Below are positions 2,962 through 31,308 of a DNA stretch of 32,978 nt, one piece after another. The translations under genes were made by a program, and so were the position numbers. Within the stretch, counting starts at the first letter, position 1. Each line of letters begins with the position of its first letter. The stretch is taken from positions 1 through 32,978 of the forward strand of contig JAJRZL010000292.1 in the NCBI GenBank assembly GCA_024275255.1. Direction: 5' to 3'. Origin of the DNA: Candidatus Zixiibacteriota bacterium (lineage in GTDB: Bacteria > Zixibacteria > MSB-5A5 > GN15 > FEB-12). The notes beneath the pieces were generated by a model. It worked only from the letters and a program-made list of their open reading frames with translations. It was not told the DNA's origin and searched no databases.

Positions 2962-2997
2962 AAAAAACCCGCCGAACTTTCAAAGTCACGGCGGGTT
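2962..2997 (-). terminator. Intrinsic terminator between the leader ORF and the ABC exporter genes (candidate attenuator)
   Basis: On - strand: AACCCGCCG-tgactttgaaagtt-CGGCGGGTT followed by a T-run (TTTTTT). 9-bp stem. Confidence 0.85.
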
Positions 2998-3019
2998 GAC
3001 AACTTACTGCGTATGTTTT

Positions 3020-3097
3020 CTACAATAGCAGATACACTACTCCCGCCGCAAAGGGATACCCTTGAGGAGAAATCAAATTAAGCCTGGTATTTGCCAT
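3020..3097 (-). CDS. 25-aa candidate leader peptide MANTRLNLISPQGYPFAAGVVYLLL
   Basis: - strand ATG at 3097 preceded by AAAGGAGG with a 7-nt spacer, TAG at 3020-3022. Lies directly between a near-consensus promoter and an intrinsic terminator. Below the length cutoff of the supplied ORF track. Confidence 0.7.
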   Translation of the reverse strand: MANTRLNLISPQGYPFAAGVVYLLL

Positions 3098-3152
3098 GTT
3101 ATGTCCTCCTTTGCAAACGGTTTAATTCTACGTTCTTTGGTTAAGTACGACA

Positions 3153-3180
3153 ATGATAGTAATAAGATTCATCATGTCAA
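3153..3180 (-). promoter_or_regulatory. Sigma-70-type promoter for the leader ORF/ABC exporter transcript
   Basis: - strand TTGACA (3180-3175), 16-nt spacer, TATCAT (3158-3153). About 50 nt of predicted 5'UTR before the ATG at 3097. Confidence 0.65.
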
Positions 3181-3544: not shown

Positions 3545-4354
3545 GTGTCTGAAGCTGAAGAAAAAAACGAGAAACAGGAACAAGCTGAGACCAAATCAGA
3601 GGAAAAAGCTCCTGCTAAAAAGAGTGGTCTTCTGAAATACATTATCATCGGTGTCGGTGCTATTGTTCTTATTGCCGGTGTGGCGTTTGGGGTGCTGATG
3701 TTTACCGGTAGTCCAGAACCTGCACCTGAAAATCAGACCGAACAAACAGCCCAGGCGGATGACAATACCGATCACCAAACCGATGCCACTCACCCTGAAG
3801 AAGAGTCGGCTCACGACGGTGATACTGAACATGGTGATATGATTCCTCAGGATGACGGAGAAATGCCGGAAAGCCTTCTTGCTGCTGCCGCTGAAGAGAT
3901 GGATAAAAAAATGCTTGATGTCATCAATGAAAACCTTGCCGCCCTTGACTGGCAGCCGGATCCGAGTGAGCTGGAAGGGGCAGATATTGGTATGTCGGTA
4001 GAAGATTCTCTTAAAGAAGTAAACTGGCTGGAAGAAGAAAAAGCAAAAATAGAAAAACGGAAAAAAGAACTGGATAAACGCGAAAAAGAGCTCAACAAGC
4101 TCAACCGCGAGGTAACCCAAAAGTTACTTCGTCTTGAACAGGCAGAATCGACCCGGGTCAACAATTTAGCAAAGTTATATGATAGTATGGACCCGCGATC
4201 GGTTGCCCGTTTGATGGCTAATCTTGATGATGCAACTGTTGTTTCGATAATCCCGAGGATGAAAACCAAGAATGCCTCGGCAGTGCTGCAACTGCTGCCG
4301 GCAAAGCGGGCTGCCCGTTTGTCCAAGCAAATGATTACGATTGCTGAAAAATAA
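3545..4354 (+). CDS. MotE-like/MgtE-N-domain flagellar protein with one N-terminal TM helix
   Basis: Charged N-terminus, TM helix LLKYIIIGVGAIVLIAGVAFGVLMF, coiled coil, C-terminal RLMANLDDATVVSIIPRMKTKNASAVLQLLPAKRAARLSKQM typical of MgtE_N/FliG-like folds. First gene before fliK. GTG start with GGAG SD. Confidence 0.75.
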   Translation: MSEAEEKNEKQEQAETKSEEKAPAKKSGLLKYIIIGVGAIVLIAGVAFGVLMFTGSPEPAPENQTEQTAQADDNTDHQTDATHPEEESAHDGDTEHGDMIPQDDGEMPESLLAAAAEEMDKKMLDVINENLAALDWQPDPSELEGADIGMSVEDSLKEVNWLEEEKAKIEKRKKELDKREKELNKLNREVTQKLLRLEQAESTRVNNLAKLYDSMDPRSVARLMANLDDATVVSIIPRMKTKNASAVLQLLPAKRAARLSKQMITIAEK

Positions 4355-4356
4355 GT

Positions 4357-5865
4357 ATGAACACAGGTACGGCACAGATAGCTGATTTATTACTGGGTAT
4401 TGCTCCTCCATCAGGAGGAGTGCCATCCGGTGCTGGTGGGGGGGAGAAAGGAGCCTCACTTTTCGGCGATGTTATAAGCGGCATGATGCGTTCCTCTCAG
4501 CTGCAGGGTCTCAATGTAGATAATCTGCTTATGGCTGGTGATTCTGTTCTGGAGAAGAACGATAATCCCATATTGAATGAATTACTGCAGCAGATTATAC
4601 ATGCTGGTGAGAACGAGGGGCTGTTGGCTGTTCAGGATGATGTGTCAACTGTCTATCCTGCGGATAATCAGCAATCCGTACAAGGGAAAACTCCCCACCC
4701 GACTCAACCGGGTGCTGTTGCTCTTATGCCATTACAGGCTCCATTGTCATCAATGCCGGTAAACGAGTTTGTGCGTGATATTATCGATGGCAACATAACC
4801 GAATTACAACCCGGCAGGTACGAAGTACAGAATATTACTTTCCAGGGCGACACGGTTCAGCTTGACGTATCGCCACTTGATAAAACCGGTACGGCTATTC
4901 GCATTTCTCTTCCTTCGGACAAACTGATTTCGGGTATGGCGAACTCCCAACAGGTTGCTGTTGCCGGGCAGGAACGAGCAGTGCTTGAGAATTATTTGGC
5001 GAAGCTTGATGTCAAAGAGCTTGTCATCACGATTAACAATACTACATCGCATCAAACGGCAATATCGCCGGATAGTGAAGTCGGGGTGGAAATAATCGCA
5101 GTTAATGCTGGGCAGTTGGTTTCGTTAAAAGCCCGCATGACACAGCGTGACATCAATGCCCGTACGCAGCTCATGACAACCAAAAATGTCAGTGCTGATA
5201 ACACAGAAAATACTCTTCTATCCGTTCCGTCGTTCAAACCGATACAAAAACTTGAATCGACCACACAAAGTGAACTGGATTGGTTTAACAAGCAAAATAC
5301 CTGGGATAACAAGAGTAAACATACTCAACTAATGGAAGTTGATGCTGGCAGTAGTCAGTCAGGAGTGATTAATGCCCAACTAACAGGTCACAATACCGAA
5401 TCGACTGTATCCAGTCGCATGATTCCACAGACAGTACGGTTTACTCTGCCGGATAACCTGGCAACCACATTGCGTCCCAACGGCCATTCAATCCAGCTTC
5501 GTATTGAACCGGAACATCTCGGACCGGCTCGACTGAGCCTGACATTACAGCATAATCGTCTCAGGGCGGTTGTAACTGTGGAAACACATCAGGCACAGGC
5601 GATATTGGAGAGGTCGTTGGATAAACTGCATAACACGCTAAGTCAAGCGGGAGTGCAGGTTGATTATATAGATGTCAATGTGGACCCCAGACAGAGCGGT
5701 GATCAGCTATTCAGGCAAGATGCCCGTCCCGATTACAAACGGGTTCCGTTGTCGTCGTTGTCGATGATTGATGGTGAATCGGATATGGTACAAAATACCA
5801 TATCAGTAAGCAGGTATTCACCAGCATCATATATAAATACAAATGGACTGAATATATTAGCATAG
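4357..5865 (+). CDS. fliK: Flagellar hook-length control protein FliK
   Basis: Low-complexity N-terminus; C-terminal Flg_hook signature LRIEPEHLGPARLSLTLQHNRLRAVVTVETHQAQAILERSLDKLHNTLSQAGVQVDYIDVNV; position before flgD. Confidence 0.88.
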   Translation: MNTGTAQIADLLLGIAPPSGGVPSGAGGGEKGASLFGDVISGMMRSSQLQGLNVDNLLMAGDSVLEKNDNPILNELLQQIIHAGENEGLLAVQDDVSTVYPADNQQSVQGKTPHPTQPGAVALMPLQAPLSSMPVNEFVRDIIDGNITELQPGRYEVQNITFQGDTVQLDVSPLDKTGTAIRISLPSDKLISGMANSQQVAVAGQERAVLENYLAKLDVKELVITINNTTSHQTAISPDSEVGVEIIAVNAGQLVSLKARMTQRDINARTQLMTTKNVSADNTENTLLSVPSFKPIQKLESTTQSELDWFNKQNTWDNKSKHTQLMEVDAGSSQSGVINAQLTGHNTESTVSSRMIPQTVRFTLPDNLATTLRPNGHSIQLRIEPEHLGPARLSLTLQHNRLRAVVTVETHQAQAILERSLDKLHNTLSQAGVQVDYIDVNVDPRQSGDQLFRQDARPDYKRVPLSSLSMIDGESDMVQNTISVSRYSPASYINTNGLNILA

Positions 5866-5874
5866 GAGAATAGT

Positions 5875-6573
5875 ATGGATCCCATCACCGGAACAGGAAA
5901 CGGTTTAGTACCATCAACCAATAATTCCCCTCTTTCGAGCGGTGTAAACAGTACTTTGGGGAAAGATGATTTCCTCCAGTTACTGGTAACAAAACTGCAA
6001 AATCAGGATCCGCTGAATCCGATGCAGGATGAGGATTTCATTGCGCAATTGGCACAATTTTCATCGTTGGAGCAGATGACCAATATAGCGGATGGTATTG
6101 CCAAGTCGAATCAATGGGATTACCTGCAGATGCAGTCCATCAACAATGTCATGGCGGCGAGTTTGATTGGGAAGAATGTCGAAGCTGACTTTGGCGGGTT
6201 GTATTATGACGGCAAATCCTCACCTGAGATAACGTTCTCTCTCGATAAATATGCCGACGAATTACAAATAACAATCAAGGACTCCAGTGGCAATGTGGTC
6301 TCAACCCTGACCGAGAAAAACCTCGATCCGGGGAAACATACATTTGAATGGGACGGGCGTGACCTCCAGTCGAATATGGTTGATCCCGGATTGTATTCGG
6401 TTGAAATATCGGCGGTTGATGGCTCCGGTAACTCTTTCAATCCAAGTCAAAAAATGACCGGGACTGTTGAAGCTGTTACGTACCGTGATGGCTCAGCGTA
6501 CTTCATGGTCAATGGCATGGAGATACCGTTTGGTGATGTCCGGGCGATTATCGATCCGGAAGATACAAATTAA
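5875..6573 (+). CDS. flgD: Flagellar hook assembly protein FlgD
   Basis: LGKDDFLQLLVTKLQNQDPLNPMQDEDFIAQLAQFSSLEQM signature; FlgD Ig-like/tudor C-terminus. Confidence 0.95.
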   Translation: MDPITGTGNGLVPSTNNSPLSSGVNSTLGKDDFLQLLVTKLQNQDPLNPMQDEDFIAQLAQFSSLEQMTNIADGIAKSNQWDYLQMQSINNVMAASLIGKNVEADFGGLYYDGKSSPEITFSLDKYADELQITIKDSSGNVVSTLTEKNLDPGKHTFEWDGRDLQSNMVDPGLYSVEISAVDGSGNSFNPSQKMTGTVEAVTYRDGSAYFMVNGMEIPFGDVRAIIDPEDTN

Positions 6574-6605
6574 GTGGGAACTATTAAAACACGGTAGATA
6601 GGATT

Positions 6606-7007
6606 ATGAAGGTTCAACAATCAATATCGATAGCACAGCGTCAGCAGCCGGTAAATCTACTGGATGTTGTTCAACGAGGGAAAGCCCAGTCGGGAAATAT
6701 TGAACGGGGTATATCGTTTAAGGATATGTTCTCCCGGGAATTGGCGAACAACCGGAAACTTGTGTTTTCCAAACATGCCGAACAGCGGTTATTTTCCCGT
6801 GGTATATCTCTCTCTGACGATATGATACATCGTATTGCTGATGCTGTAGATCAGGCAAATATAAAAGGTTCGCGGCAGACATTGATTCTCACCGATGATT
6901 CTGCGCTGGTCGTATCGGTAAAGAACCGGACAGTCATTACTGCTTTCGATAAAAATAACCTTCGAGAGGGAGTGGTCACCTCGATTGATTCAGCGGTGAT
7001 ACTTTAA
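6606..7007 (+). CDS. Flagellar operon protein of the TIGR02530 type
   Basis: 133 aa; FSKHAEQRLFSRGISLSD...LILTDDSALVVSVKNRTVITAF; located between flgD and flgE as in other flagellar operons. Confidence 0.8.
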   Translation: MKVQQSISIAQRQQPVNLLDVVQRGKAQSGNIERGISFKDMFSRELANNRKLVFSKHAEQRLFSRGISLSDDMIHRIADAVDQANIKGSRQTLILTDDSALVVSVKNRTVITAFDKNNLREGVVTSIDSAVIL

Positions 7008-7022
7008 CGTGGAAAATGAGAA

Positions 7023-7121
7023 ATGAATATACAGCGAAATAATAACAACCATGACAGAAGGCCGGACTTCATTATGATGGAGAGGCTTATCTGTGAACGT
7101 ATGGAGGAAACTACATCATGA
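7023..7121 (+). CDS. Possible 32-aa small ORF overlapping the flgE start (ATGA overlap)
   Basis: MNIQRNNNNHDRRPDFIMMERLICERMEETTS*; its TGA overlaps the flgE ATG at 7118. SD for this ORF is weak. Confidence 0.25.
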   Translation: MNIQRNNNNHDRRPDFIMMERLICERMEETTS

Positions 7122-9064
7122 TGGCGTCATTGTATGCAGGTGTATCTGGTCTGAAAAACCACCAGGTGAAAATGAATGTGATAGGTAACAATATCGCAAA
7201 CATCAACACTATTGGTTTTCAGGCGAGTCGTGTAAATTTTCAGGAAGCATTGGTACAGACATTCCGTGGAGCCGGCAGGCCATCGTCAGTGAGTGGTGGT
7301 ACCAACCCGGTACAGCTTGGTTTGGGAATGGAAGTCGGTGCGATTGATACCTTGTTCAAACAGGGTGGTTTGGAAACAACAGGACAAATCACCGACCTTG
7401 CTATTCAGGGTTCGGGATTCTTTGTCCTTGGTGATGCGAATGATAACAAATTTTACACTCGTGCCGGGGCGTTTGGGTTTGATGCAGATGCAACCCTCGT
7501 GGACCCGGCAACCGGGTTGTACGTATTGGGGAAAATGGCTGATTCTTCAGGGGAAATTCCTGCATTGGCAACAACCGGGAAGATAACCCTGCCGTTTGGT
7601 CAACAGGACCCGGCGCGTGCAACGGAAACAGTGTGGCTGTCCAATAACCTTGATGCCTCGGCTACGGATGCCGTTGCAAGACTTTCCGATCCGGACGGCT
7701 CGAGTGTTATTCTCGTTTCGGGAACGGCTGTTGATGGAGTTGGGGGCACGCACTCTGTACGGATTACCGGGAATCAGGCAACCAATGATTCTTTCACCAG
7801 CTCAACCTCGGGGTTATCCGGGAACCAAACCCTGGGAAGCCTGGCAACACCGGTGACGGATTTCTCTGATTTTACCATTACTGTTGATGGTACGAATACT
7901 GAAACAATCTCAGGTCTTTCTGCGGATACCACAATTGATGAGCTCATCTCGGCGATTAACCAAACTGACGGTATTACCGCGCGTTTGACAACAGCCGGTG
8001 CCATAGAAATTGTTCGTGATCGTGCAGGTGCCAGCACTTCGTATAACTTCGTATCTTCGAATGCAACAGCCGGTGATGTACTGAATGTCATCTTCGGGGT
8101 TGCTGACGGCAGCCAGATGCAGTCAAGTGGTGGTACGGCAACAACGCTTGTCGCTGTTGATACCTTTACTCCCGATGTCGGCACCGGTTCAGCAGCCGGT
8201 CCGGTAGTAACTAATCTTGACCTCGTGTTTGATGAAAACACCGGTATCGTTACCGGGCTCAGTGGACTTGGCGGTGGTGGAGTACAGATTTCAGCCGGTG
8301 CTTCCGGTATTACTTCTACCGGCGCCGATACACTGGATATTGTGACCGAATCGACTGTTCATACGACGTCAATTAGTGTCTTTGATTCTCAGGGTGGAAA
8401 GCATACGATTTCGATACAATTTTTCAAATCTATTATCCCCAACCGCTGGGAATGGAAAGTTTCCACTCTTGGAAATGAGATTATCAATTCCGGCGGTAAC
8501 GGGTATGTACAGTTCAACGGTGATGGTTCCCTGAGTGCGTTTGAATATAACGGGAGCGCTGACACACTTACCATTGATCCGAATAATGGTGCCGACAGCA
8601 TGCGTATTTCATTCAATGCCGGAACAGCGCTTAACTTTGATGGTCTGACCGGTTTTGCATCCGGGCAGCACACGGCATCGCTGGTTCGACAGGATGGCTA
8701 TGGTGTCGGTATTCTGCAGAAGATAGCCATTGATAAAGCTGGAAATATATCGGGTATCTTTACCAATGGTGTGACCCGTTTGCTGGCTCAAATTGTGCTG
8801 GCGGACTTCTTCAATGAAGCCGGGTTGCGGAAAGCCGGAAAATCCATGTACCAGGAATCGGCAAACTCCGGGAATGCAGTTGAGGGCACAGCAGGGAATA
8901 CAGTGTCTGGTGAGATATTCTCAGGTGCGCTCGAATCTTCATCGGTGGATGTAGCTGAAGAGTTTACCAGCATGATTACCGCTCAACGTGGATTCCAGGC
9001 TAATGCAAGGATTATTACAACATCGGACAGTATGCTCGATGAATTGGTAAATATTAAACGATAG
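7118..9064 (+). CDS. flgE: Flagellar hook protein FlgE
   Basis: N-term MASLYAGVSGLKNHQVKMNVIGNNIANINTIGFQASRVNFQEAL; C-term SSVDVAEEFTSMITAQRGFQANARIITTSDSMLDELVNIKR. SD GGAGG upstream. Confidence 0.96.
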   Translation: MMASLYAGVSGLKNHQVKMNVIGNNIANINTIGFQASRVNFQEALVQTFRGAGRPSSVSGGTNPVQLGLGMEVGAIDTLFKQGGLETTGQITDLAIQGSGFFVLGDANDNKFYTRAGAFGFDADATLVDPATGLYVLGKMADSSGEIPALATTGKITLPFGQQDPARATETVWLSNNLDASATDAVARLSDPDGSSVILVSGTAVDGVGGTHSVRITGNQATNDSFTSSTSGLSGNQTLGSLATPVTDFSDFTITVDGTNTETISGLSADTTIDELISAINQTDGITARLTTAGAIEIVRDRAGASTSYNFVSSNATAGDVLNVIFGVADGSQMQSSGGTATTLVAVDTFTPDVGTGSAAGPVVTNLDLVFDENTGIVTGLSGLGGGGVQISAGASGITSTGADTLDIVTESTVHTTSISVFDSQGGKHTISIQFFKSIIPNRWEWKVSTLGNEIINSGGNGYVQFNGDGSLSAFEYNGSADTLTIDPNNGADSMRISFNAGTALNFDGLTGFASGQHTASLVRQDGYGVGILQKIAIDKAGNISGIFTNGVTRLLAQIVLADFFNEAGLRKAGKSMYQESANSGNAVEGTAGNTVSGEIFSGALESSSVDVAEEFTSMITAQRGFQANARIITTSDSMLDELVNIKR

Positions 9065-9112
9065 AGGTAAGAAAATAACAACTCAGGTTTCGAAGCACCT
9101 TCATACAGAACA

Positions 9113-9141
9113 GCGGTACTCAAAATAATTTTGGGTACCGC
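9113..9141 (+). repeat. Strong inverted repeat/hairpin between flgE and fliL
   Basis: GCGGTACTCAAAA-taa-TTTTGGGTACCGC: 13 consecutive pairs (one G-T) with a 3-nt loop; no T-run follows. Confidence 0.85.
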
Positions 9142-9163
9142 CCGGGTATAACGGGAGAATGAT

Positions 9164-9778
9164 ATGGCAAACGATGAAGAAAAAACCACTGTTGAGACCA
9201 ACGACTCCGGTGGAAATGATGGTGATAAGGCAAAGAAGTCCGGTGGTTCCAAAAAACTTATCCTGTTCGGCGGCATTGGTGTTGTCGCTGTAATTATTGG
9301 AATTGCTCTGGCATTATTTGTACTGCGTCCTATGATGGCTGGTTCGGGTGAGGGGGGAGATACAACTTCCGAAGTGTCATCCGCCGATCACGGTAAGGAC
9401 AGCGCTAAGGCTGAAAAAGCGAAGAAAGAGAAAAAGAAAAAAGAGAAGAAAAAACGTGGTGGGGAAGGTGAGGGTGAAAGCCTTATCTGTACCATTAAAG
9501 ATATTGTTATCAATCCGGCAGGGACCGGTGGTTCGCGTTTTCTCTCTGTTTCGTTTGGCTTCGAGTTGGATTCTCCGGAAGCAAAGGCGGAATTTGAAGC
9601 ACGGGAACCGGCTATTCGTGATGCCCTGATAACGATTCTTTCATCAAAGACAGTTGCCCAGTTGACGGATGTCAAGCAGAAGGAAATCATGCGGTATCAG
9701 ATAAAAAGGCGTGTTGAAAAACTGCTGGATTCCGAAGAGCTGGCAGGAGTCTATTACACTGATTTTGTATTGCAGTAG
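9164..9778 (+). CDS. fliL: Flagellar basal body-associated protein FliL
   Basis: Single TM, Lys-rich linker, FliL C-terminal domain (IRDALITILSSKTVAQLTDVKQKEIMRYQIKRRVEKLL); immediately before fliM. Confidence 0.9.
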   Translation: MANDEEKTTVETNDSGGNDGDKAKKSGGSKKLILFGGIGVVAVIIGIALALFVLRPMMAGSGEGGDTTSEVSSADHGKDSAKAEKAKKEKKKKEKKKRGGEGEGESLICTIKDIVINPAGTGGSRFLSVSFGFELDSPEAKAEFEAREPAIRDALITILSSKTVAQLTDVKQKEIMRYQIKRRVEKLLDSEELAGVYYTDFVLQ

Positions 9779-9787
9779 AGGTATATA

Positions 9788-10789
9788 GTGGCGGCGAAGA
9801 TTCTTTCCCAGGATGAAATTGATGCCCTGTTAACAACGGTATCTGCCGGAGAACAGGAGCAGGAGGAACAGCAATACGAGGATGACAGGTTGCGGTCTGT
9901 CATTGCGTATGACTTCAAACATCCGAATCGTGTTTCCAAGGACCAGATTCGTACCCTGGAGAATTTGCATGATAATTTAGCCGGGCATTTTGGTTCATCG
10001 TTATCGACTATTATGCGTATGATTGTCGATATTGACCTTGTCTCGGTCGATCAGATTACCTATTCCGAATTTATCATGTCCCTGGTAACGCCGTCATGTA
10101 CTTATACCTTTAGTGCGGAACCGCTCGATGCGGTTTGTTTGGTTGATTTCAACCCCACCCTTACGTTTGCATTTATCGACCGTATGTTTGGCGGTAACGG
10201 AAAGATTCTTGAAACCGAGCGGGAGCTGACCCCCATTGAACGAACGGTTATGGGACGGCTGTCTCAACGGCTGTATACCGATCTTGAGGAATCGTGGGAA
10301 AATATTACCAAGATAAATATTGAACAAAAAAGCTTTGAAACAAACCCGCAGTTTATCCAGATAGTACCTCCCGGTGAAACGGTAGTTGTGATATCGTTCC
10401 AGATAAAACTATTTCAATCAACCGGGTTATTAACCATTTGCTATCCGTATGTCTCCCTGGAACCGATAATCTCGAAACTGTCAGCGCAGAACTGGATCGA
10501 TGCTACAAAGAAGAAGAATCTTGAAATTGATCGGGAAACAAACCTTGAAAATCTGAAGCATGTTAATGTTGAGGTAAGTGCCAATCTTCTGGATACGTCA
10601 ATAAAGATGAGAGATTTCCTTCAACTCAAGGTTGGAGATGTTGTCCCCTCTGAGAAGAAAATTAACTTACCTGTCGATGTGTATATCAATAAAAGGAAAA
10701 AATTTCTGGCACGACCCGGCTTATCCGGAAAAAAACGTGCCATTCAAGTAGTGGAAATAATAGAAAATCCTTTAGAGGCGAGTAAATAA
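9788..10789 (+). CDS. fliM: Flagellar motor switch protein FliM
   Basis: ILSQDEIDALLTTV N-terminal CheY-binding motif; FliM core; GTG start with GAGG SD. Confidence 0.97.
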   Translation: MAAKILSQDEIDALLTTVSAGEQEQEEQQYEDDRLRSVIAYDFKHPNRVSKDQIRTLENLHDNLAGHFGSSLSTIMRMIVDIDLVSVDQITYSEFIMSLVTPSCTYTFSAEPLDAVCLVDFNPTLTFAFIDRMFGGNGKILETERELTPIERTVMGRLSQRLYTDLEESWENITKINIEQKSFETNPQFIQIVPPGETVVVISFQIKLFQSTGLLTICYPYVSLEPIISKLSAQNWIDATKKKNLEIDRETNLENLKHVNVEVSANLLDTSIKMRDFLQLKVGDVVPSEKKINLPVDVYINKRKKFLARPGLSGKKRAIQVVEIIENPLEASK

Positions 10790-10790
10790 T

Positions 10791-11429
10791 ATGGCAGAAG
10801 AGCAAAACAAAGAAAATCAGCCGGAAGTTCAGGATACCGGAAATGCTGATGTTTCTGCTCCTGCGGCGGATGAAGCTGCTGCAGACAATGCGGAAGCTGC
10901 CGAAAGTCCACCGGCAGAGGATGCCGCGGGACCACCGGAATCAGGTGAAGACAGCAAAGACGCACCACCGGCGGATGACTTTAAGGTTGTCAATGAGAGT
11001 GATGTCTCGGAAGAGGATGCCGAGGCGGCCATGATGGCAATGCTCGAGGATTTGCCCCCGGAAGAAAAAACAATTACCCCTGATGATATTGATTTTGGGG
11101 CGCAGTCCGTATCCCGTGCGGAGTTTCAGCATCTCTCAGAACCTGCCGGCAAGCAGGAACCACGTAATATTGATATCCTGATGGATGTCAACCTGCCGGT
11201 TTCTATCGAACTGGGCAGAACAAAGATGTCTATATCTGATATTCTTGGTTTGGGTCCGGGTTCGGTTGTTGAGCTCAACAAACTGGCTGGTGAGCCGGTT
11301 GATGTGTTGGTGAATTATAAAATTGTCGCCAAGGGTGAAGTGGTTGTTGTCGATGAAAACTTCGGTGTGCGTATTACTCAATTGATGACACCGGAAGAAA
11401 GGTTGAAACTGCTCAGTGATGACAACTAA
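10791..11429 (+). CDS. fliN: Flagellar motor switch protein FliN
   Basis: Acidic/Ala-rich N-terminus; SpoA domain ILMDVNLPVSIELGRTKMSISDILGLGPGSVVELNKLAGEPVDVLVNYKIVAKGEVVVVDENFGVRIT. Confidence 0.97.
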   Translation: MAEEQNKENQPEVQDTGNADVSAPAADEAAADNAEAAESPPAEDAAGPPESGEDSKDAPPADDFKVVNESDVSEEDAEAAMMAMLEDLPPEEKTITPDDIDFGAQSVSRAEFQHLSEPAGKQEPRNIDILMDVNLPVSIELGRTKMSISDILGLGPGSVVELNKLAGEPVDVLVNYKIVAKGEVVVVDENFGVRITQLMTPEERLKLLSDDN

Positions 11430-11985
11430 ACTGCAAAGAAGAAATATCATCATGGTCGTGGTGATAATAGGACTGGCAATAACCGGTCTGTTGGTAATCA
11501 ATACTGATACGGTTACGGCTGACAGGATAGGAACTTCCGTCACGGATAACAATTCGGAATCACTGCATGATGTCCCGACACTGGGAACGTCGATGACAGT
11601 CTTGCCATCATTGCTTCGTCTGTTCAGCGCTTTGATTATCGTGATAGGCTGTATTTACGGTGGCATTTACCTGTTGAAACGGGTGATGAATCGTCGGTTT
11701 CATGGCAATGGCAGTTTTCATGCCCTGGAGGTGCTGGAAACAACGCATATCGGTCCGAAAAAAATGGTTTCACTGGTGCGGGTAGGTAACAAAGCGGTGT
11801 TGGTTGGGATGACCGAAACAACAATATCACCCCTGGCGGAACTTGATACCGAGCAGACACATGAAATACTTTCACAGCAACAAGCGACAATACCGGAACA
11901 TGATTTTAAGAAAGTATTGAAATCTGCAACCGGCAGGTTTCGTACTGTTCGTCTGAAACGACATCAGGCAGCATTGGATACATAA
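11416..11985 (+). CDS. fliO: Flagellar biosynthetic protein FliO
   Basis: TM segment, then MVSLVRVGNKAVLVGMTETTISPLAEL typical of FliO; between fliN and fliP. Start uncertain (GTG 11416 overlaps fliN; internal ATGs possible). Confidence 0.85.
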   Translation: MMTTKLQRRNIIMVVVIIGLAITGLLVINTDTVTADRIGTSVTDNNSESLHDVPTLGTSMTVLPSLLRLFSALIIVIGCIYGGIYLLKRVMNRRFHGNGSFHALEVLETTHIGPKKMVSLVRVGNKAVLVGMTETTISPLAELDTEQTHEILSQQQATIPEHDFKKVLKSATGRFRTVRLKRHQAALDT

Positions 11986-12005
11986 CAGGAAAAAGAGAAC
12001 GTACC

Positions 12006-12022
12006 TGCAACAGGATGTTGCA
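12006..12022 (+). repeat. Inverted repeat TGCAAC-aggat-GTTGCA upstream of fliP
   Basis: 6-bp perfect stem, read directly. Confidence 0.6.
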
Positions 12023-12024
12023 AA

Positions 12025-12048
12025 ACGTGTGATATGGATGTCACACGT
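12025..12048 (+). repeat. Inverted repeat ACGTGTGA-tatggatg-TCACACGT upstream of fliP
   Basis: 8-bp perfect arms, 8-nt spacer, read directly. Confidence 0.75.
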
Positions 12049-12066
12049 CAAAAAGAAATATAGGAC

Positions 12067-12819
12067 ATGAACAAAAAAGCCCTGATAATTATTTTCGCTG
12101 CAATCGCAGTGGTGCTTTGCTCGGCGAATCTATCTGCTCAGACATTGCCGAAAGTGTCGTTGCAGGTAGGGCAGTCCGACAACCCCTCTGATCTCTCCAC
12201 CACCCTTCAGATTGTTATTCTTCTTACTGTGCTGGCATTGGCGCCGTCAATACTCATCATGGTGACATCGTTTATCCGGTTTGTGGTTGTAATGTCATTT
12301 TTACGCAATGCGATTGGTATCCAGCAAATGCCTCCCAGCCAACTGCTTATCGGGTTGGCATTGATATTGACTTTCTTTGTCATGGCGCCTGTTATCAATC
12401 AATCATATTCCGAGGGAATAAAACCATACCTTGATAAACAAATCGATTCCGATGAAGCGTATGATAAAGCAATAGGACCGTTTCGTAAATTCATGCTGGC
12501 GCAAACCCGCGAGAAAGACCTCGCGTTGTTTGTCAATATTGCAAAACTGGACCAGCCGGACAACGAGGAAGATATTCCGCTCCATGTGCTGGTGCCGGGG
12601 TTTGTTATCTCGGAACTGCGGACTGCTTTTCAGATTGCGTTTGTGCTGTTTGTACCTTTCCTGGTAATAGATATGGTCGTGGCATCGGTACTGATGTCAA
12701 TGGGTATGATGATGCTGCCGCCGGTTATTGTTTCTTTGCCGTTTAAGATATTGCTGTTTGTTCTTGTTGATGGCTGGTATTTGCTGGTGAAGTCACTGGT
12801 CGAATCATTTCATATGTGA
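12067..12819 (+). CDS. fliP: Flagellar type III export protein FliP
   Basis: Signal-like N-terminus; TSFIRFVVVMSFLRNAIGIQQMPPSQLLIGLALILTFFVMAPV; MGMMMLPPVIVSLPFKILLFVLVDGWYLLVKSLVESF. Confidence 0.98.
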   Translation: MNKKALIIIFAAIAVVLCSANLSAQTLPKVSLQVGQSDNPSDLSTTLQIVILLTVLALAPSILIMVTSFIRFVVVMSFLRNAIGIQQMPPSQLLIGLALILTFFVMAPVINQSYSEGIKPYLDKQIDSDEAYDKAIGPFRKFMLAQTREKDLALFVNIAKLDQPDNEEDIPLHVLVPGFVISELRTAFQIAFVLFVPFLVIDMVVASVLMSMGMMMLPPVIVSLPFKILLFVLVDGWYLLVKSLVESFHM

Positions 12820-12832
12820 GGATTGAGTAGGT

Positions 12833-13102
12833 ATGACACCACAAATGGTTGTTGCAATTGGCAGGGAAGCTTTATCGGTTACTATCATGGTTGCCGGTCC
12901 AATGCTTTTGTTTGCCCTGATTGTCGGATTGGCTATTTCCATTTTTCAAGCCATTACCCAAATAAATGAAATGACGTTAACTTTTGTCCCGAAAATCCTG
13001 GCAATCGCTCTGGCACTGCTCGTTTTCTTACCATGGATGATCAATTTATTAACAGACTTCGCCTACCACATGTTCGAGCTGATTCCCACGCTGGCAGGGT
13101 GA
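12833..13102 (+). CDS. fliQ: Flagellar type III export protein FliQ
   Basis: 89 aa; IGREALSVTIMVAGPMLLFALIVGLAISIFQAITQINEMTLTFVPKILAIALAL. Confidence 0.97.
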   Translation: MTPQMVVAIGREALSVTIMVAGPMLLFALIVGLAISIFQAITQINEMTLTFVPKILAIALALLVFLPWMINLLTDFAYHMFELIPTLAG

Positions 13103-13105
13103 AAA

Positions 13106-13122
13106 CGGACACCTTCGGTGTC
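13106..13122 (+). repeat. Hairpin GGACACC-ttc-GGTGTCC just after the fliQ stop; possible weak terminator (T-run about 8 nt further on)
   Basis: 7-bp perfect stem followed by tcagcacTTTTTT. Coordinates read by hand, accurate to within about 1 nt. Confidence 0.5.
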
Positions 13123-13203
13123 CTCAGCACTTTTTTCCAACACAACTGGTAAGTTTTTCCGCAGTCACTATATAACAACTGCTTAAAATAATTTACCGGA
13201 ATT

Positions 13204-13230
13204 GTATCGCATTGATATTCAATACGATAC
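13204..13230 (+). repeat. Long inverted repeat in the fliQ-fliR gap
   Basis: GTATCGCATTGA-tat-TCAATACGATAC: 12-nt arms with one mismatch. Confidence 0.8.
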
Positions 13231-13279
13231 AGGCTCAACTCCTCATGTTTCAGTTCGGCACATCATTTGAATAAGTATT

Positions 13280-14101
13280 ATGTCGATTAACCAGAAGTGT
13301 GGGAAAAAAGATTTGTTTGATTTTGTACAATATGGCTCTGAGACTATTCAAGTCTTTCTGTTAATCCTGTTGCGGATAACGGGATTGTTTCTCATGGCTC
13401 CTGTTTTCAGCAGTAAGTCTTCACCTGTCCCGATACGGGTAGGGCTGGTAATTCTTATGTCTATAATCCTGGTTTCGGTCCTTAATCAACCCGAATTGCC
13501 GTTGGTGGAATCTATCTGGCAGCTTGTCGGAATGGCGGCAAAAGAGCTGCTGGTCGGGGTGGTTATCGGGCTGATGTTTCGCCTTCTATTTATGGGGGTA
13601 AAAACCGGCGGAGCAATTCTTGGGTATCAGATCGGGTTTGCGATGGTGAGTGTGCCTGATGTTGATTCTGCGGACCAGGTATCAATTATTGCCCGTTTTT
13701 GGTTTTTACTTGCCACCTTGATTTTCCTTTCGATAAACGGGCATCACCTTGTAATCACTGCTCTGGCTGACAGTTTTCAGGCTATTCCTCCCGGTATGGT
13801 AACAATGCCGTCATCGGTTGGTGAGCTTATCATCAAGTACACCGGGTATGTCTTTGTTATTGCCGTAAAAGTTGCCGCTCCGGTGATGGTCACTCTCTTT
13901 TTGACGGATGTCTCTCTGGGCATAATCGCCAAGATGATGCCAACCATGAATGTGTTCTTTGTCGGTTTTCCCATAAAAATCGGGGTGGGACTGGTCGTAT
14001 TGGCAATGTCATTACCACTGTTCTCATACATCCTGGGAAAATCTCTCCATGTACTGGACAATGAACTCCGGGTGCTGTTTGCCGTTTGGGGTGAGGTGTA
14101 A
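13280..14101 (+). CDS. fliR: Flagellar type III export protein FliR
   Basis: ETIQVFLLILLRITGLFLMAPVFSSKSSPVPIRVGLVILMSIIL...; between fliQ and flhB. No good SD at ATG 13280, so the exact start is uncertain. Confidence 0.93.
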   Translation: MSINQKCGKKDLFDFVQYGSETIQVFLLILLRITGLFLMAPVFSSKSSPVPIRVGLVILMSIILVSVLNQPELPLVESIWQLVGMAAKELLVGVVIGLMFRLLFMGVKTGGAILGYQIGFAMVSVPDVDSADQVSIIARFWFLLATLIFLSINGHHLVITALADSFQAIPPGMVTMPSSVGELIIKYTGYVFVIAVKVAAPVMVTLFLTDVSLGIIAKMMPTMNVFFVGFPIKIGVGLVVLAMSLPLFSYILGKSLHVLDNELRVLFAVWGEV

Positions 14102-14107
14102 GGATAA

Positions 14108-15178
14108 ATGGCGGATCAGGATTTTCAAGAACGGACAGAGAAAGCGACATCGCGGCGACGGGAAAAAGCCCGTGAGCGCGGACAGGTCGCAAAATCAATG
14201 GAGCTCAATTCAGCAGCAGTTATCGGGCTTGGCTTTTTAACGCTGTTTATGTTCGGTCCTTACTTCGCCTCTCAGATGCAGTCGCTGGTCCGATACACGA
14301 TGGCAAATGCACCAATGCTGGCATTGGCGGATCAGTCTCATTACAAGCTGTTTACCGATAATATCATCAAGTTTTTTATCATTGTCGGACCGCTCTTTCT
14401 TGTTTTGGCTCTGGTCGCGTTTGGTATCAATGTCGCCCAGATTGGGTTTCGTATTACCCCCAAGGCGATGGAACTGAAACTGGAGAAACTGAATGTTGTC
14501 AGTGGTCTGAAGCGGCTGCTTTCTCTGCGCTCACTGGTTATGCTGGTTCGGGATGTTCTGAAGCTGACGGTTATTGGTTTTGTCGCATACAAGGCGATTG
14601 CCAGTGAATTTGCAGGCTTTTTCAAGTTATCCGATATGACTGTCTCACAGGTAGCAACAACGATGGGAGAACTGGCGCTTCTGCTGGCGTTGAAAGTGGC
14701 TGGGGTCATTTTAGTTATAGCGATTCTTGATTATCTCTACCAGAAATTTGAATTCGAAAAATCAATTCGGATGAGCCGGCAGGAACTCAAGGATGAGAAC
14801 AAGGAAACGGAAGGCTCACCGCAGATAAAATCGCGTATCCGTCAGGTGCAGTTACAAATGGCGCGTTCACGGATGATGCAGGCGGTTCCCCTGGCGGATG
14901 TGGTGGTTACCAACCCGACTCATCTGGCAGTAGCACTCAAGTATGACCCGGATAAATCCGAAGCTCCGTTTGTGGTTGCCAAGGGACAAAGAAAGATTGC
15001 TGAACAAATCAAGGCGGTTGCCAGGGAACATGATATCCCGATAGTCGAGAATAAACCTCTCGCCCAGGCATTATTCAAGATGTGTGATATTGGTCAGGTG
15101 GTGCCGGCGAACCTGTACCGGGTTGTCGCTGAGGTTCTTGCCTATGTCTATCGCTTAAAAGGAAAGGTGATGAACTGA
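14108..15178 (+). CDS. flhB: Flagellar type III export protein FlhB
   Basis: DQDFQERTEKATSRRREKARERGQVAKSMELNSA; autocleavage NPTH motif (VVVTNPTHLAVALKY). Confidence 0.98.
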   Translation: MADQDFQERTEKATSRRREKARERGQVAKSMELNSAAVIGLGFLTLFMFGPYFASQMQSLVRYTMANAPMLALADQSHYKLFTDNIIKFFIIVGPLFLVLALVAFGINVAQIGFRITPKAMELKLEKLNVVSGLKRLLSLRSLVMLVRDVLKLTVIGFVAYKAIASEFAGFFKLSDMTVSQVATTMGELALLLALKVAGVILVIAILDYLYQKFEFEKSIRMSRQELKDENKETEGSPQIKSRIRQVQLQMARSRMMQAVPLADVVVTNPTHLAVALKYDPDKSEAPFVVAKGQRKIAEQIKAVAREHDIPIVENKPLAQALFKMCDIGQVVPANLYRVVAEVLAYVYRLKGKVMN

Positions 15179-15179
15179 T

Positions 15180-17273
15180 ATGGCAGCAGCACCGGGACAA
15201 AAACAAGCCAGTCTCATTGAGCTGATTACCTCCCGTTCAGACATTGCTCTGGCGTTCGGAGTTGTGGGTATTATCGGCGTATTGGTAATTCCCATTCCGA
15301 CAATGCTGCTGGATTTTGCCCTGGCGTTTAATATCACCTTTTCACTGGTCGTACTGCTGACCACGTTGTATGTCACACGTCCCCTTGACCTTTCGGTATT
15401 CCCCGGAATGCTGCTCATGGTCACCCTGATGCGGTTAGCACTCAATGTTGCCTCGACCCGTTTGATTCTCGGTCAGGCGTATGCCGGTGAGGTTATCAAT
15501 TCGTTTGGTGATTTCGTCGTGCAGGGTAACTACGTGGTCGGGTTTATCGTGTTTGTCATATTGGTTATTATTCAATTTGTCGTTATTACCAAAGGTGCAG
15601 GGCGTATTTCCGAGGTTGCGGCACGGTTTACCCTCGATGCCATGCCCGGTAAACAAATGGCTATCGATGCCGATTTGAATGCCGGTATTATCTCGGAACA
15701 GGAAGCCAAGCAACGCCGACAGGATATAGCACGGGAAGCAGATTTTTATGGCGCTATGGATGGTGCCTCGAAGTTCGTGCGCGGTGATGCCATTGCCGGT
15801 ATTCTCATCACATTGATAAATATCATCGGTGGGTTTGTCATAGGTATTGCTATCAACAATATGACCATCACCGAAGCAATGCGCACGTATTCGCTGCTTT
15901 CCATCGGTGATGGTTTGGTGACTCAAATTCCTGCCCTGTTAGTTTCAACTGCATCGGGTGTTATTGTGACTCGCGCCGCCGCAACGGAAAATATGGGGCG
16001 TGATTTGACCAAGCAGCTTACCAACCAGCCCCGTGCTATCATGGTTGCTGCAGTGGTCCTGTTCATTTTCAGTTTCCTGCCGGGTATGCCGACATTCACC
16101 TTCATGACCCTTGGGGTTATTGCCGGTGGAATCGGATACATGACCCGTGAAGTGCAGAATAAGAAGATACGGGAAGCACGGGAAGCGGAACTCAAGAAAG
16201 CAGCACAAAGCCAGGTTACGGAGGAGCGGACGGAAGACCTGATCAAGGTTGATACCCTCGGTCTGGAAATCGGGTATGGCCTTATCCCGCTGGTCGATCC
16301 CAAGCAGAACGGGGATTTGTTGAACCGTATCTCCACAATACGCAAGCAGCTTGCCGGTGAACTCGGTATCATGGTTCCTCCGATACGTATTCGGGACAAT
16401 ATCCGGTTAAAACCGAATGAATATCAGATAAAAGTTAAAGGCATCAGGGTTGATGGCTATGAATTGATGATAGATAGGGTGTTAGCTATCAATCCGGGTT
16501 TTGTTGAAGAAGAGCTCGATGGGTTCAAGACCAAGGATCCGGCATTCGGATTATCAGCCACCTGGATATTGCCGAATCTTCGTGAAGTTGCCGAAGCGAA
16601 GAAGTTTACCGTTGTAGAACCTTCAGCAGTGCTGGCAACACATTTAACAGAAATCATCCGTCGTTCGGCAGCGGAAATTCTTACCCGGCAGGATGTCCAG
16701 CATCTTGTTGATACTCTCAAAGAAGATTCCCCGGCATTGGTTGATTCCGTGATACCGGAGATTGTTCCTCTGGGGTTGTTGCAAAAAGTATTACAGACTC
16801 TCTTGCGGGAACGTATTCCTATCCGAGACCTGGGTGGTATTCTCGAAACTGTTTCTGACTATGCGACTATCACCAAGGAAGCCGATGTGCTTGCGGAATA
16901 TGCCCGTATGGGGTTGAAACGGCAGATAACGGAACTCTATCGAGAGCAGGATGGCAAAATACATGTCTTTACTCTCGACCCGGCCGTAGAGCAGTCTCTC
17001 GCCGAATCGGTACAGAATACCAAGCAGGGTTTAATGCTGACTATCGATCCTGCGATGGCGGAAACATTATTGAAAAAAATCGGAGAACAGGTAGAAGCGA
17101 TGCAAAACAATGGCTTCATACCTGTGTGTCTCTGTTCCCCGAATATCCGACTGGCATTGCGTCGGTTAGTTGAAGCAAAATACCCCGGTATGGCAGTGGT
17201 CTCGTACAACGAGATTGTCCCTGATGTGGAAGTCATTTCAACCGGGATGGTGAGGTTACAGGATGATAATTAA
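15180..17273 (+). CDS. flhA: Flagellar type III export protein FlhA
   Basis: 697 aa; FHIPEP-type protein (LDLSVFPGMLLMVTLMRLALNVASTRLIL; AARFTLDAMPGKQMAIDADLNAGIISEQEAKQRR). Confidence 0.98.
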   Translation: MAAAPGQKQASLIELITSRSDIALAFGVVGIIGVLVIPIPTMLLDFALAFNITFSLVVLLTTLYVTRPLDLSVFPGMLLMVTLMRLALNVASTRLILGQAYAGEVINSFGDFVVQGNYVVGFIVFVILVIIQFVVITKGAGRISEVAARFTLDAMPGKQMAIDADLNAGIISEQEAKQRRQDIAREADFYGAMDGASKFVRGDAIAGILITLINIIGGFVIGIAINNMTITEAMRTYSLLSIGDGLVTQIPALLVSTASGVIVTRAAATENMGRDLTKQLTNQPRAIMVAAVVLFIFSFLPGMPTFTFMTLGVIAGGIGYMTREVQNKKIREAREAELKKAAQSQVTEERTEDLIKVDTLGLEIGYGLIPLVDPKQNGDLLNRISTIRKQLAGELGIMVPPIRIRDNIRLKPNEYQIKVKGIRVDGYELMIDRVLAINPGFVEEELDGFKTKDPAFGLSATWILPNLREVAEAKKFTVVEPSAVLATHLTEIIRRSAAEILTRQDVQHLVDTLKEDSPALVDSVIPEIVPLGLLQKVLQTLLRERIPIRDLGGILETVSDYATITKEADVLAEYARMGLKRQITELYREQDGKIHVFTLDPAVEQSLAESVQNTKQGLMLTIDPAMAETLLKKIGEQVEAMQNNGFIPVCLCSPNIRLALRRLVEAKYPGMAVVSYNEIVPDVEVISTGMVRLQDDN

Positions 17274-28195: not shown

Positions 28196-28218
28196 AATAA
28201 TAGTTAGTGGAGGTTGTT

Positions 28219-31200
28219 ATGGGTAAAGGACGATGGTTGGTGACGGTAGTTGTTGTACCACTGCTTCTCTCTTTTCTTGCCATACCTGTGTTATTGCAGG
28301 CTGGTGATGGCAATGAAAAGCAGTCTCACGTAGTTACTGGTGATCCTTTTTTAGCACCATCAGGTGATGAAGGGGGAAATGCAAATGTCTCGGAGGGGCT
28401 GGAGAATTTTATTCCACCACAGGATGACGAGAATAATATTGAAGTGTTGCCGATGCTTGGTAACAGCGCTGACAATCCCAGGGTTAATGTCATGCCGGGA
28501 AAAGGGGTCGGACGCGGTGCTCCCTATGCCTGGCCCGGTCATTCTCTGATAATTTGGGGGAATGTACACAATGGTACTCCACCATACACCTATACATGGG
28601 ATTTTGGTGACGGGAGTGCCCCGGTTTCCGGTACGGTAAGTAATCCGAAGTACATTAATGTGACACATGCCTATGCTACCATTGGTGATAAGAATGCTGT
28701 ACTCACAGTGACCGATGCGGATGGGAACTTCGATGTGGACACTGTTAAAATTCAAGTGCGTTCGTATGAAAGAGAAGTCGAAGTGAATGCTGCTATCGAG
28801 AATGGTTTGCGGTATTTGTACCTTCATCAGCAAGCCGATGGCAGGTGGGATTATAGCAGCTATGATGTGGCAGCTACGGCTCAGGCAGTCTTATGTTTTG
28901 AAAATCAAGGGTATATACCGACTGATGATTATGACAAGGATATTTATGCCGAATATGTAAAAGCCGGACTTGACTATATCACTGCTCATTTGGGGTCAGT
29001 GAGCATTGGTATGCAAGGTGCCGGTGATCCGGAAGAAGATGCCCCGGGGAATACTGATCACAATGGAATAGGAGTGTATCCTGCAGCATCACAACCAGTT
29101 TATACTGTTGGTATGGTTCTGATGGCAATGGTTAGCTCCAATGCTCCCAATATGGTGGCTCCCAATGGACCAGTTAATGTAGTTGGTCGTACATATTATG
29201 ATATAGTTGTCGATATGGTTGACTGGTGTGCCTGGGCACAGAATGAACCTACCTCTTCATGTCGTCGAGGTGGGTGGAGATATAGTGCTAATTATGGTTC
29301 TTCAGATAATTCTGTTTCCCAGTGGCCCGCTATTGGACTGGAAGCAGCCGAGACCAACTGGGGTATTGAAGCACCACCCTTTGTCAAATCCGAATTATTA
29401 TCCTGGATTAATACTTCACAATTGGGTGATGGTCGATTCTATTATATTTGTTGGAGGTGGGCTGCTGGACCGATGGCGGTTACTGGTGCCGGGGTATGTG
29501 AAATGGCGTATGTGGATATTCAATCATCTGAAGCCCGGTTTCAGAACTCTCTCTCGTATTTAGAAAATCACTTAAATTCAAGTAACGGATTCTATTATGC
29601 CATGTACTCAATTTCCAAAGGGTGTCGTATTGCTGACCCTCCGGTAAATGCCATGCCCGGAGGGTTAGACTGGTACGACTCATACTGCACCTATCTACTG
29701 GCAACCCAAAATGCTGATGGAAGCTGGCCTGTACATTATTGGGGACTTATGGATACCGAATGGGCGATACTTGTATTAGAGCAGAATGTTCATTTGAGTC
29801 CTGTTGCCGTTATTAATGCTCCTGATTCCGTAGCTCCGGGAGTTCCGTTTGATGTTGACGGTTCCGGTTCGTACCACCCTTCCTCTGACCGGGAAATTGT
29901 CGAGTGGTTATGGGATTTTGATAAGGATGATGGTGTTGACTGGGATAATCCTGATACGGATGTTGTTGCGTTTTCACATCCCGGCTATTCGTTACCCGAC
30001 TCGGTCTTTGCCGATACCCATACTATTTCCCTGCGGGTTGCTGATGATGGTGGTCCTACGGGAGATACCTTGTTTGGCACAGCAGAGCACACAGTTATTG
30101 TCAGTCGTGTCAATCATGCTCCTATTGCAGATGCCGGTGGTCCATATTCCGGGAAGGTTGGAGACTTGATTTGTCTGGATGCCACCGGGTCTCATGATGA
30201 TGATTCCGGTGACTATATCGCGGCTTACTTCTGGGATGTTGATGGTAATGGTTGTTTCCCGCCACCGTATGATACCTGTAATGACCCCATGGACTGCACA
30301 GATTCGGTTTGTTGCCGGGTGTGGAGTTATGAATATTCCGGCTATGTCGGGTTAGTTGTTCGGGATAAGTGGGGCGCTTATTCCGATGAAGCGTCTGCCT
30401 ATGTGAAGATAGATATTTCATGGGTTGATGTTGGGGTAGAAGATGCCGACATTTCTTTCTCAGGTGGTGGCGCTATTGATGACACTATCACCGTTACTGC
30501 AGCGATTCATGCCGTTGCTGATGTAGATACGACATTGCCACCAGTACGGGTTCGTTTCTACGATGGTGACCCGAGCATTTCCGGTTGGACCCAGATTGGT
30601 AATGACCAGATTATTTACGATATGGATTCCGGTGATGTGGAGATTGTACAGGCACAGTTTGTCTGTGAGGATACCTCTACGCATGACATCTTTGTTGTTG
30701 TTGATCCCGATGATGAGTTGTCGGAGTTCGATGAACATAACAACGTGGCATCCAAAACATTTGAGTGCGCCGGTTGTGATGATGCTACCCTGATTATCGT
30801 ACCTGACCCGATGTATATTTTCTATGCCAACAATGTTACTGACAAACGAGCATATATCTATTTCGGCGACTGGACCAATGGATACGAACCACATGATATT
30901 GTCGAAAACACTGTTCGGGTCAATGACTCTCTTGTACCCACCATGTTTGAGATTTTACCAACCGAACCACTTTTCCCGGGTGAAAATCTTCGTATCAGAA
31001 TTGATATCAGACCGTTTCTCCTCGGCTATGGTTGGGTGTGGGATACTTCTTATGTCGCATACTCTGTGACCGGTAAATATACTGACAGCACGGAATTTGC
31101 CGCCTGCGGAACGTTCGAATTATTTGGTCATATTACCGGTGATGTAAATATGGATAATGAAGTAAATGTAACTGATATTGGGGTACTGGTTGACTTCCTG

Positions 31201-31308
31201 TTTAATGGTGGTCAACTGCCGGGTGATATCAGGGCTGCCGATGTAGATCATAACGGAATTGTCAATGTCGGTGACCTGTCCGAACTTATCGCAATTATCT
31301 TTATGTAG
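28219..31308 (+). CDS. Large secreted protein: signal peptide, PKD domain, terpenoid-cyclase/prenyltransferase-like alpha-toroid repeats, further PKD domains, CARDB-like domain, C-terminal type I dockerin
   Basis: PYTYTWDFGDGSAPVSG (PKD); AIENGLRYLYLHQQADGRWDYSSYDVAATAQAVLCFENQGY and YDSYCTYLLATQNADGSWPVHYW (toroid repeats); VEDADISFSGGGAIDDTITVTAAIHA...DPDDELSEFDEHNNVA (CARDB-like); GDVNMDNEVNVTDIGVLVDFLFNGGQLPGDIRAADVDHNGIVNVGDLSELIAIIFM (dockerin). ATG 28219 has GGAGG 5 nt upstream. Confidence 0.88.
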   Translation: MGKGRWLVTVVVVPLLLSFLAIPVLLQAGDGNEKQSHVVTGDPFLAPSGDEGGNANVSEGLENFIPPQDDENNIEVLPMLGNSADNPRVNVMPGKGVGRGAPYAWPGHSLIIWGNVHNGTPPYTYTWDFGDGSAPVSGTVSNPKYINVTHAYATIGDKNAVLTVTDADGNFDVDTVKIQVRSYEREVEVNAAIENGLRYLYLHQQADGRWDYSSYDVAATAQAVLCFENQGYIPTDDYDKDIYAEYVKAGLDYITAHLGSVSIGMQGAGDPEEDAPGNTDHNGIGVYPAASQPVYTVGMVLMAMVSSNAPNMVAPNGPVNVVGRTYYDIVVDMVDWCAWAQNEPTSSCRRGGWRYSANYGSSDNSVSQWPAIGLEAAETNWGIEAPPFVKSELLSWINTSQLGDGRFYYICWRWAAGPMAVTGAGVCEMAYVDIQSSEARFQNSLSYLENHLNSSNGFYYAMYSISKGCRIADPPVNAMPGGLDWYDSYCTYLLATQNADGSWPVHYWGLMDTEWAILVLEQNVHLSPVAVINAPDSVAPGVPFDVDGSGSYHPSSDREIVEWLWDFDKDDGVDWDNPDTDVVAFSHPGYSLPDSVFADTHTISLRVADDGGPTGDTLFGTAEHTVIVSRVNHAPIADAGGPYSGKVGDLICLDATGSHDDDSGDYIAAYFWDVDGNGCFPPPYDTCNDPMDCTDSVCCRVWSYEYSGYVGLVVRDKWGAYSDEASAYVKIDISWVDVGVEDADISFSGGGAIDDTITVTAAIHAVADVDTTLPPVRVRFYDGDPSISGWTQIGNDQIIYDMDSGDVEIVQAQFVCEDTSTHDIFVVVDPDDELSEFDEHNNVASKTFECAGCDDATLIIVPDPMYIFYANNVTDKRAYIYFGDWTNGYEPHDIVENTVRVNDSLVPTMFEILPTEPLFPGENLRIRIDIRPFLLGYGWVWDTSYVAYSVTGKYTDSTEFAACGTFELFGHITGDVNMDNEVNVTDIGVLVDFLFNGGQLPGDIRAADVDHNGIVNVGDLSELIAIIFM

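Follow-up and report, generated by a model that had tools for sequence, protein, structure and literature searches.

To our knowledge, ribosome-sensing attenuators of ABC exporters are known mainly from Firmicutes. The bmrB leader of bmrCD in Bacillus subtilis has 53 codons and carries its terminator inside the ORF; ribosome-targeted antibiotics induce readthrough, and blocking translation lowers expression and readthrough and abolishes the induction (PMC4191407). In Streptococcus pneumoniae, patAB is preceded by a terminator with a predicted antiterminator and anti-antiterminator, and mutations in the terminator raise expression (PMC4319486). The toiL uORF of topAI-yjhQ in Escherichia coli senses several classes of inhibitor through stalls at different positions (PMC12121999).

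The leader studied here lies in a stretch of 32,978 nucleotides from Candidatus Zixiibacteriota bacterium (contig JAJRZL010000292.1), called the window below. It shares with bmrB a small ORF, alternative stem-loops, a premature terminator and a heterodimeric ABC exporter downstream (PMC4191407). It differs from the Firmicute leader in belonging to the Zixibacteria and in its layout, with an ORF of about 25 codons and a terminator beyond the stop codon rather than inside a 53-codon ORF. The two are also predicted to differ in their response to a loss of translation, which lowers readthrough of bmrB and should raise expression here. Like patAB, the locus has an attenuator terminator upstream of a heterodimeric ABC exporter (PMC4319486), but that study describes no leader-peptide mechanism for patAB, and an anti-antiterminator finds no support in the Zixibacteria leader. 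In the case of toiL a ribosome-binding site is freed and termination is Rho-dependent (PMC12121999), whereas the Zixibacteria leader has an intrinsic terminator.

Comparison of related genomes leads us to conclude, with a probability of about 0.87, that this leader is a ribosome-mediated transcription attenuator of the exporter and is conserved across the class. The mechanism class is a textbook one, which limits the surprise, and the family of Zixibacteria exporter leaders is previously undescribed. No Rfam family matches the leader at the gathering scores, nor when E values up to 1 are allowed; literature searches combining Zixibacteria, leader peptide and ribosome returned nothing, and those with attenuation returned the word in unrelated senses only. 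A class-wide case suggests that efflux induction by translation stress is old and widespread.

Leader and exporter genes in the window

All elements of the leader and the exporter genes are on the minus strand. A sigma-70-type promoter, TTGACA-N16-TATCAT, with 11/12 matches (3180-3153), is followed by a Shine-Dalgarno sequence, AAAGGAGG (3112-3105), whose duplex with the anti-Shine-Dalgarno is estimated at -11.6 kcal/mol, and by a leader ORF (uORF) of 25 codons, MANTRLNLISPQGYPFAAGVVYLLL, ending in a TAG stop (3097-3020). An intrinsic terminator with a run of six T (2997-2962) starts downstream of the uORF end at 3020 and is thus outside the leader ORF in the window. It has a folding energy of -19.6 kcal/mol and a z score of -4.6, and none of 200 shuffles was equally good. 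The first-pass annotation, made from the sequence of the window, had placed these four elements correctly. Between the terminator and the first exporter gene, where a separate promoter could have driven expression, we looked for a promoter-like site in the window and found none.

The 7-mer CGGCGGG occurs within the uORF (3048-3042) and again as region 3, the 3' arm of the terminator (2974-2968), and CCCGCCG (2995-2989) is able to pair with either copy. The two helices are mutually exclusive, as had been proposed, and the antiterminator of the window extends to 10 bp: region 1, TTGCGGCGGG (3051-3042), is its 5' arm and pairs with region 2, CCCGCCGTGA (2995-2986), the shared arm that serves as antiterminator 3' arm and terminator 5' arm. 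An inner hairpin between regions 1 and 2 (3037-3009) spans the uORF stop codon and would close the antiterminator loop. The codon Pro11 (CCT, 3067-3065), a likely stall site, begins 18 nt upstream of the region 1 core. A plain fold of the whole window leader, in which UCUCC pairs with GGGAG, is unremarkable (z -1.7), so the case rests on comparison.

Two overlapping genes for ABC half-transporters follow, in agreement with the first-pass annotation. ABC1 (2904-1081) encodes 607 aa with a canonical Walker B glutamate (LLILDE) and a degenerate signature (FSRGE). ABC2 (1091-1) has its probable start at 1091, overlaps ABC1 and is partial, leaving the window at the edge; in relatives, a motif comparison gives it a canonical signature (SGGQ) and a Walker B aspartate (LILDD). 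Asymmetric ATPase motifs are characteristic of exporters in which one ATP site is degenerate, and such Walker B and signature motifs are found in ABC1 and in the ABC2 of relatives, as in heterodimeric exporters. Matches of ABC1 among solved structures are TM288, YheH chains and entries that we take to be TmrAB-type. By its sequence, ABC1 is a member of the heterodimeric exporter group, the type of exporter that had been assigned to it at the outset. None of the curated-family cut-offs searched was met by the exporter genes. A search of genome contigs returned four close relatives, the named ones being Candidatus Zixiibacteriota bacterium metagenome assemblies, and one unrelated ABC match.

Elsewhere in the window, a large flagellar gene cluster (4357-17273, plus strand; FliK, FlgD, FlgE, FliM, FlhA and others) runs divergently from the exporter operon. 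It is headed by a 269-aa protein (3545-4354, plus strand) with FliL-like similarity at its N-terminus and FlbB/MgtE_N-like similarity at its C-terminus. A 1033-aa protein (28207-31308, plus strand) has PKD, CARDB and C-terminal dockerin type I domains.

Conservation and compensatory changes in relatives

We assembled 86 leaders, several of them from congeneric genomes. ABC1 orthologues or paralogues are present in 60 of the 61 genomes searched, and in almost all orthologues a terminator lies 50-90 nt upstream of the ABC1 start codon. Upstream of the terminator, relatives have a small ORF with a Shine-Dalgarno sequence that crosses a stretch complementary to the terminator 5' arm. A promoter with at least 10/12 matches occurs at a similar distance in 30 of 51 leaders, compared with 4.6 % of shuffles.

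The wider distribution search covered genomes of the phylum. With a covariance model of the leader, matches at E <= 0.01 were obtained in 77 of the order's 81 genomes, and matches at E <= 1e-4 in 84 of the 133 from the phylum. Among genomes bearing the exporter at E <= 1e-150, 82 of 97 have a leader match at E <= 1e-4; two genomes (G122 and G132) have a match and no exporter at that threshold. All 14 class-level leaders of A2 are immediately 5' of the same exporter. The diverged orthologues in G082, G083 and G118 still have the ORF and the terminator (the G118 record is partly masked), and on inspection no clear leader was found upstream of the orthologues in G120 and G123. A paralogous second ABC pair in the same genomes, taken as a negative control, is without such a leader and its genes directly follow the partner gene. 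On this comparison the same leader is conserved 5' of the orthologous exporter across the class of the window, far beyond chance.

We excluded several weak matches to the model (L097, L101-L105, L128 and L129), which correspond to terminators that are not followed by the exporter. Two genomes have a second copy of the exporter leader (L093 at G027:C1:814800-819000 and L096 at G025:C233). The copy in G027 is followed by an ABC1 frame of only 320 aa and then by an unrelated ORF, as if it were broken.

Alignment of orthologous loci shows that the ORF has been retained and so has the alternate pairing, whose arms carry compensatory changes in two sets of leaders drawn from largely separate genomes. 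In 44 leaders, the antiterminator helix of regions 1 and 2 has changes on both sides in 7 of 10 pairs, amounting to 37 cells against 14.8 +/- 2.9 in shuffles, and a covariation score of 0.316 against 0.171 +/- 0.013 in shuffles and at most 0.160 in slid controls. A further 32 leaders, of which 14 come from beyond the order, show such changes in 7 pairs, with 25 cells against 10.0 +/- 2.6 and a score of 0.249 against 0.132, bearing in mind that relatedness of the genomes inflates all significance based on shuffles. The terminator likewise covaries. The outer-end pairs of A1 (7:78 and 8:77) also covary; the terminator hardly pairs column 77, and column 78 is not counted as paired in it. Since the region 2 bases of these outer pairs sit at the terminus of the terminator stem or past it, the signal does not simply reflect terminator pairing, and the alignments indicate that region 1 covaries with region 2 independently of it. 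The RNAalifold consensus on the leader alignment contains the terminator only, which is what helices that exclude each other should give. Across 46 leaders, the segment between regions 1 and 2 has a more stable fold than its shuffles (mean z -1.28, t -7.3).

Folding states and the proposed switch

The leader was folded in both states, with results that agree with the alternation first suggested for the window; all fold-state figures are thermodynamic rather than kinetic estimates. With region 1 free, the helix of regions 1 and 2 is part of the minimum-energy fold in 63 of 74 leaders, and it is stronger than the terminator in 59 of 74 (mean -23.1 vs -19.9 kcal/mol). In a ribosome-free RNA that ends just after region 2 it is formed in 60 of 74. 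With a ribosome set on the stop codon, the terminator alone is estimated to remain.

We propose the following switch. RNA polymerase would start at the leader promoter and transcribe the 25-codon uORF. Free translation to the stop codon would leave a ribosome on or past region 1 at the time region 2 emerges; with region 1 masked, region 2 would pair with region 3 to form the terminator, and the exporter would be off. Under slow, stalled or absent translation, region 1 would be free and would pair with region 2 first, assisted by the inner hairpin, so that transcription would proceed into the exporter genes. The likeliest place for a stall would be a proline codon that lies about 16 nt 5' of region 1. 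The idea that an early stall frees region 1 is backed by the pairing and folding data; we refine it in that the proline codon, at 16 nt in relatives and 18 nt in the window, would mark the position of the stall.

Sequence upstream of region 1 occludes it less than it does in shuffles (0.56 vs 0.62, t -3.0), which speaks against a protector (anti-antiterminator) hairpin as a general feature. Since region 1 is not hidden by structure 5' of it, readthrough is predicted for a leader that is not translated. The comparison with bmrB that was made at first thus holds for the logic and the type of target and fails for the state of the untranslated leader, which is predicted to be open.

The same phylum offers a positive control. 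Two trp attenuators, L094 (G040:C126, MNFSVSHNNIPGSARNWWWWSIPDTGSG) and L095 (G053:C114, WWWW), each with four consecutive Trp codons, are directly 5' of a trpE-like gene, and three leaders rich in Phe/Tyr, L098 (G019:C3), L099 (G071:C81) and L127 (G132:C8), have the same design of regions 1, 2 and 3 upstream of ORFs that resemble chorismate mutase/DAHP synthase and prephenate dehydrogenase (names read from translations). These attenuators have in common with the exporter leader a short ORF with region 1 close to its end, a shared region 2 and a terminator past the stop codon. They have runs of Trp or Phe/Tyr codons and serve genes for aromatic amino acids, whereas codon runs of this kind are missing from the exporter leader. 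The shared design makes it probable that ribosome-mediated attenuation operates in these bacteria.

In cells, the uORF would be translated, ribosomes would stall on it under some conditions, and transcription would accordingly terminate or read through. Since the peptide is unconserved and without a run of a single amino acid, the signal is most likely general translation stress, for instance that caused by ribosome-targeting compounds. Translation inhibitors would then be expected to induce the exporter, which may pump out such compounds. It is conceivable that the attenuator serves against natural ribosome-targeting compounds in sediments. We hypothesize further, tentatively and at somewhat less than even odds, that the leader is a class-wide stress sensor with a drifting peptide, a fixed proline stall point flush with the antiterminator arm, an open default state and a drug-type exporter. 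The leader is a transferable reporter for what these uncultured bacteria sense, and its approximately 90 natural variants could be used to study which ribosome positions switch an attenuator.

Leader peptide, proline codon and other explanations

Across the 86 leaders, the uORF has a median of 25 codons (range 22-31), starts with ATG in 82 and has a Shine-Dalgarno energy at or below -5 kcal/mol in 75; the ORF calls in G064, G066 and G076 included in these counts are script picks, truncated or frame-shifted. The distance from the end of region 1 to the end of the stop codon is mostly 17-22 nt and that from the stop codon to region 2 mostly 20-28 nt, and the stop codon precedes region 2 in nearly all relatives. 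The peptide itself is poorly conserved, with a pooled pN/pS of 0.69 from close pairs with small counts. No amino-acid run is common to the 86 peptides, in which the longest homopolymer is 4 and mostly 1-2. The reading frame across region 1 varies (65/8/1 leaders). A functional small protein is unsupported, given this fast divergence and the differing frames. The kept feature, as far as the alignments tell, is translation across region 1.

One codon departs from this pattern. In 24 of 63 leaders of frame class 1, the first base of a proline codon lies exactly 16 nt upstream of region 1, compared with 3.3 % elsewhere (p ~1e-19; weighted by genus, 12.9 of 39.6, p ~3e-9), p-values that are descriptive because the motif was spotted by inspecting leaders later used for counting. 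Each of the four proline codons occurs there. Comparisons within genera place the maximum of amino-acid identity at this codon (0.74 vs mostly 0.3-0.5 at other upstream codons), which also has the highest share of synonymous changes. In the minority of frame class 0, to which the window belongs, proline is at -18 in 2 of 7 leaders. A hairpin of the form CC-N4-GG behind the signal is not favoured: out-of-frame CC is not enriched and CCNNNNGG is mainly in-frame (16 vs 3 and 4). Proline is a slow substrate in translation, and a ribosome covers about 15 nt beyond its P-site codon, the established toeprint distance, so one paused with this proline in the P site would extend up to region 1 but not into it. 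The codon is therefore likely to be a mark for ribosome pausing, and it would serve as such in no more than about one third to 40 % of leaders.

The same codon is the starting point for a narrower form of the main explanation, in which the peptide is a ligand-specific arrest peptide, TnaC-like or Erm-leader-like, and the exporter removes the bound metabolite or drug. Here the motif P-[VIN]-[GN], which spans codons -5 to -3 and is conserved as amino acids, would act in the ribosome that halts at the edge of region 1, and XPX motifs are enriched among erythromycin stall sites (PMC13410324). The remaining peptide, however, is unconserved even within genera, and more than half of the leaders have no proline at that position; we regard specific arrest as unlikely, yet well worth keeping in view.

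If the codon were instead read as the sensor of a trp-type attenuator, the signal would be a shortage of charged prolyl-tRNA. Its position is near that of the last Trp codon in the trp attenuators of the phylum, where Trp codons are at -27 to -18 from region 1. That is a single codon and not a run, though; an in-frame proline codon anywhere from -22 to -7 is found in 42 of 74 leaders and in 32 there is none in this relevant stretch, and the regulated gene is an exporter rather than one of a proline pathway. Sensing of prolyl-tRNA is thus very improbable. Slightly less credit still is due to a riboswitch or a protein-binding antiterminator with an incidental small ORF. A hairpin upstream of region 1 whose stability modestly exceeds the chance level (mean z -0.76, t -4.0) would fit such an element, but the ORF, its Shine-Dalgarno sequence and the spacings from region 1 to the stop codon and on to region 2 have all been kept, the proline signal is at the coding level, and there is neither a conserved aptamer-like sequence nor an Rfam match to E 1. 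That an ordinary terminator has its arm repeated by chance in an unrelated ORF, as GC-rich 7-mers recur easily and the whole-leader fold is unremarkable, is refuted by conservation in 86 leaders and by compensatory changes in two sets.

Two features of individual leaders bear on how ribosomes engage the attenuator. Of the 86 leaders, 21 have a short CCG-N(2-6)-CGG inverted repeat that overlaps or abuts the Shine-Dalgarno sequence of the uORF, and control of uORF initiation by this repeat is possible. In one genus (G026 and G069; L042 and L157 at G069:C103) the uORF stops just before region 1, a variant in which a ribosome at the stop codon could possibly mask region 1.
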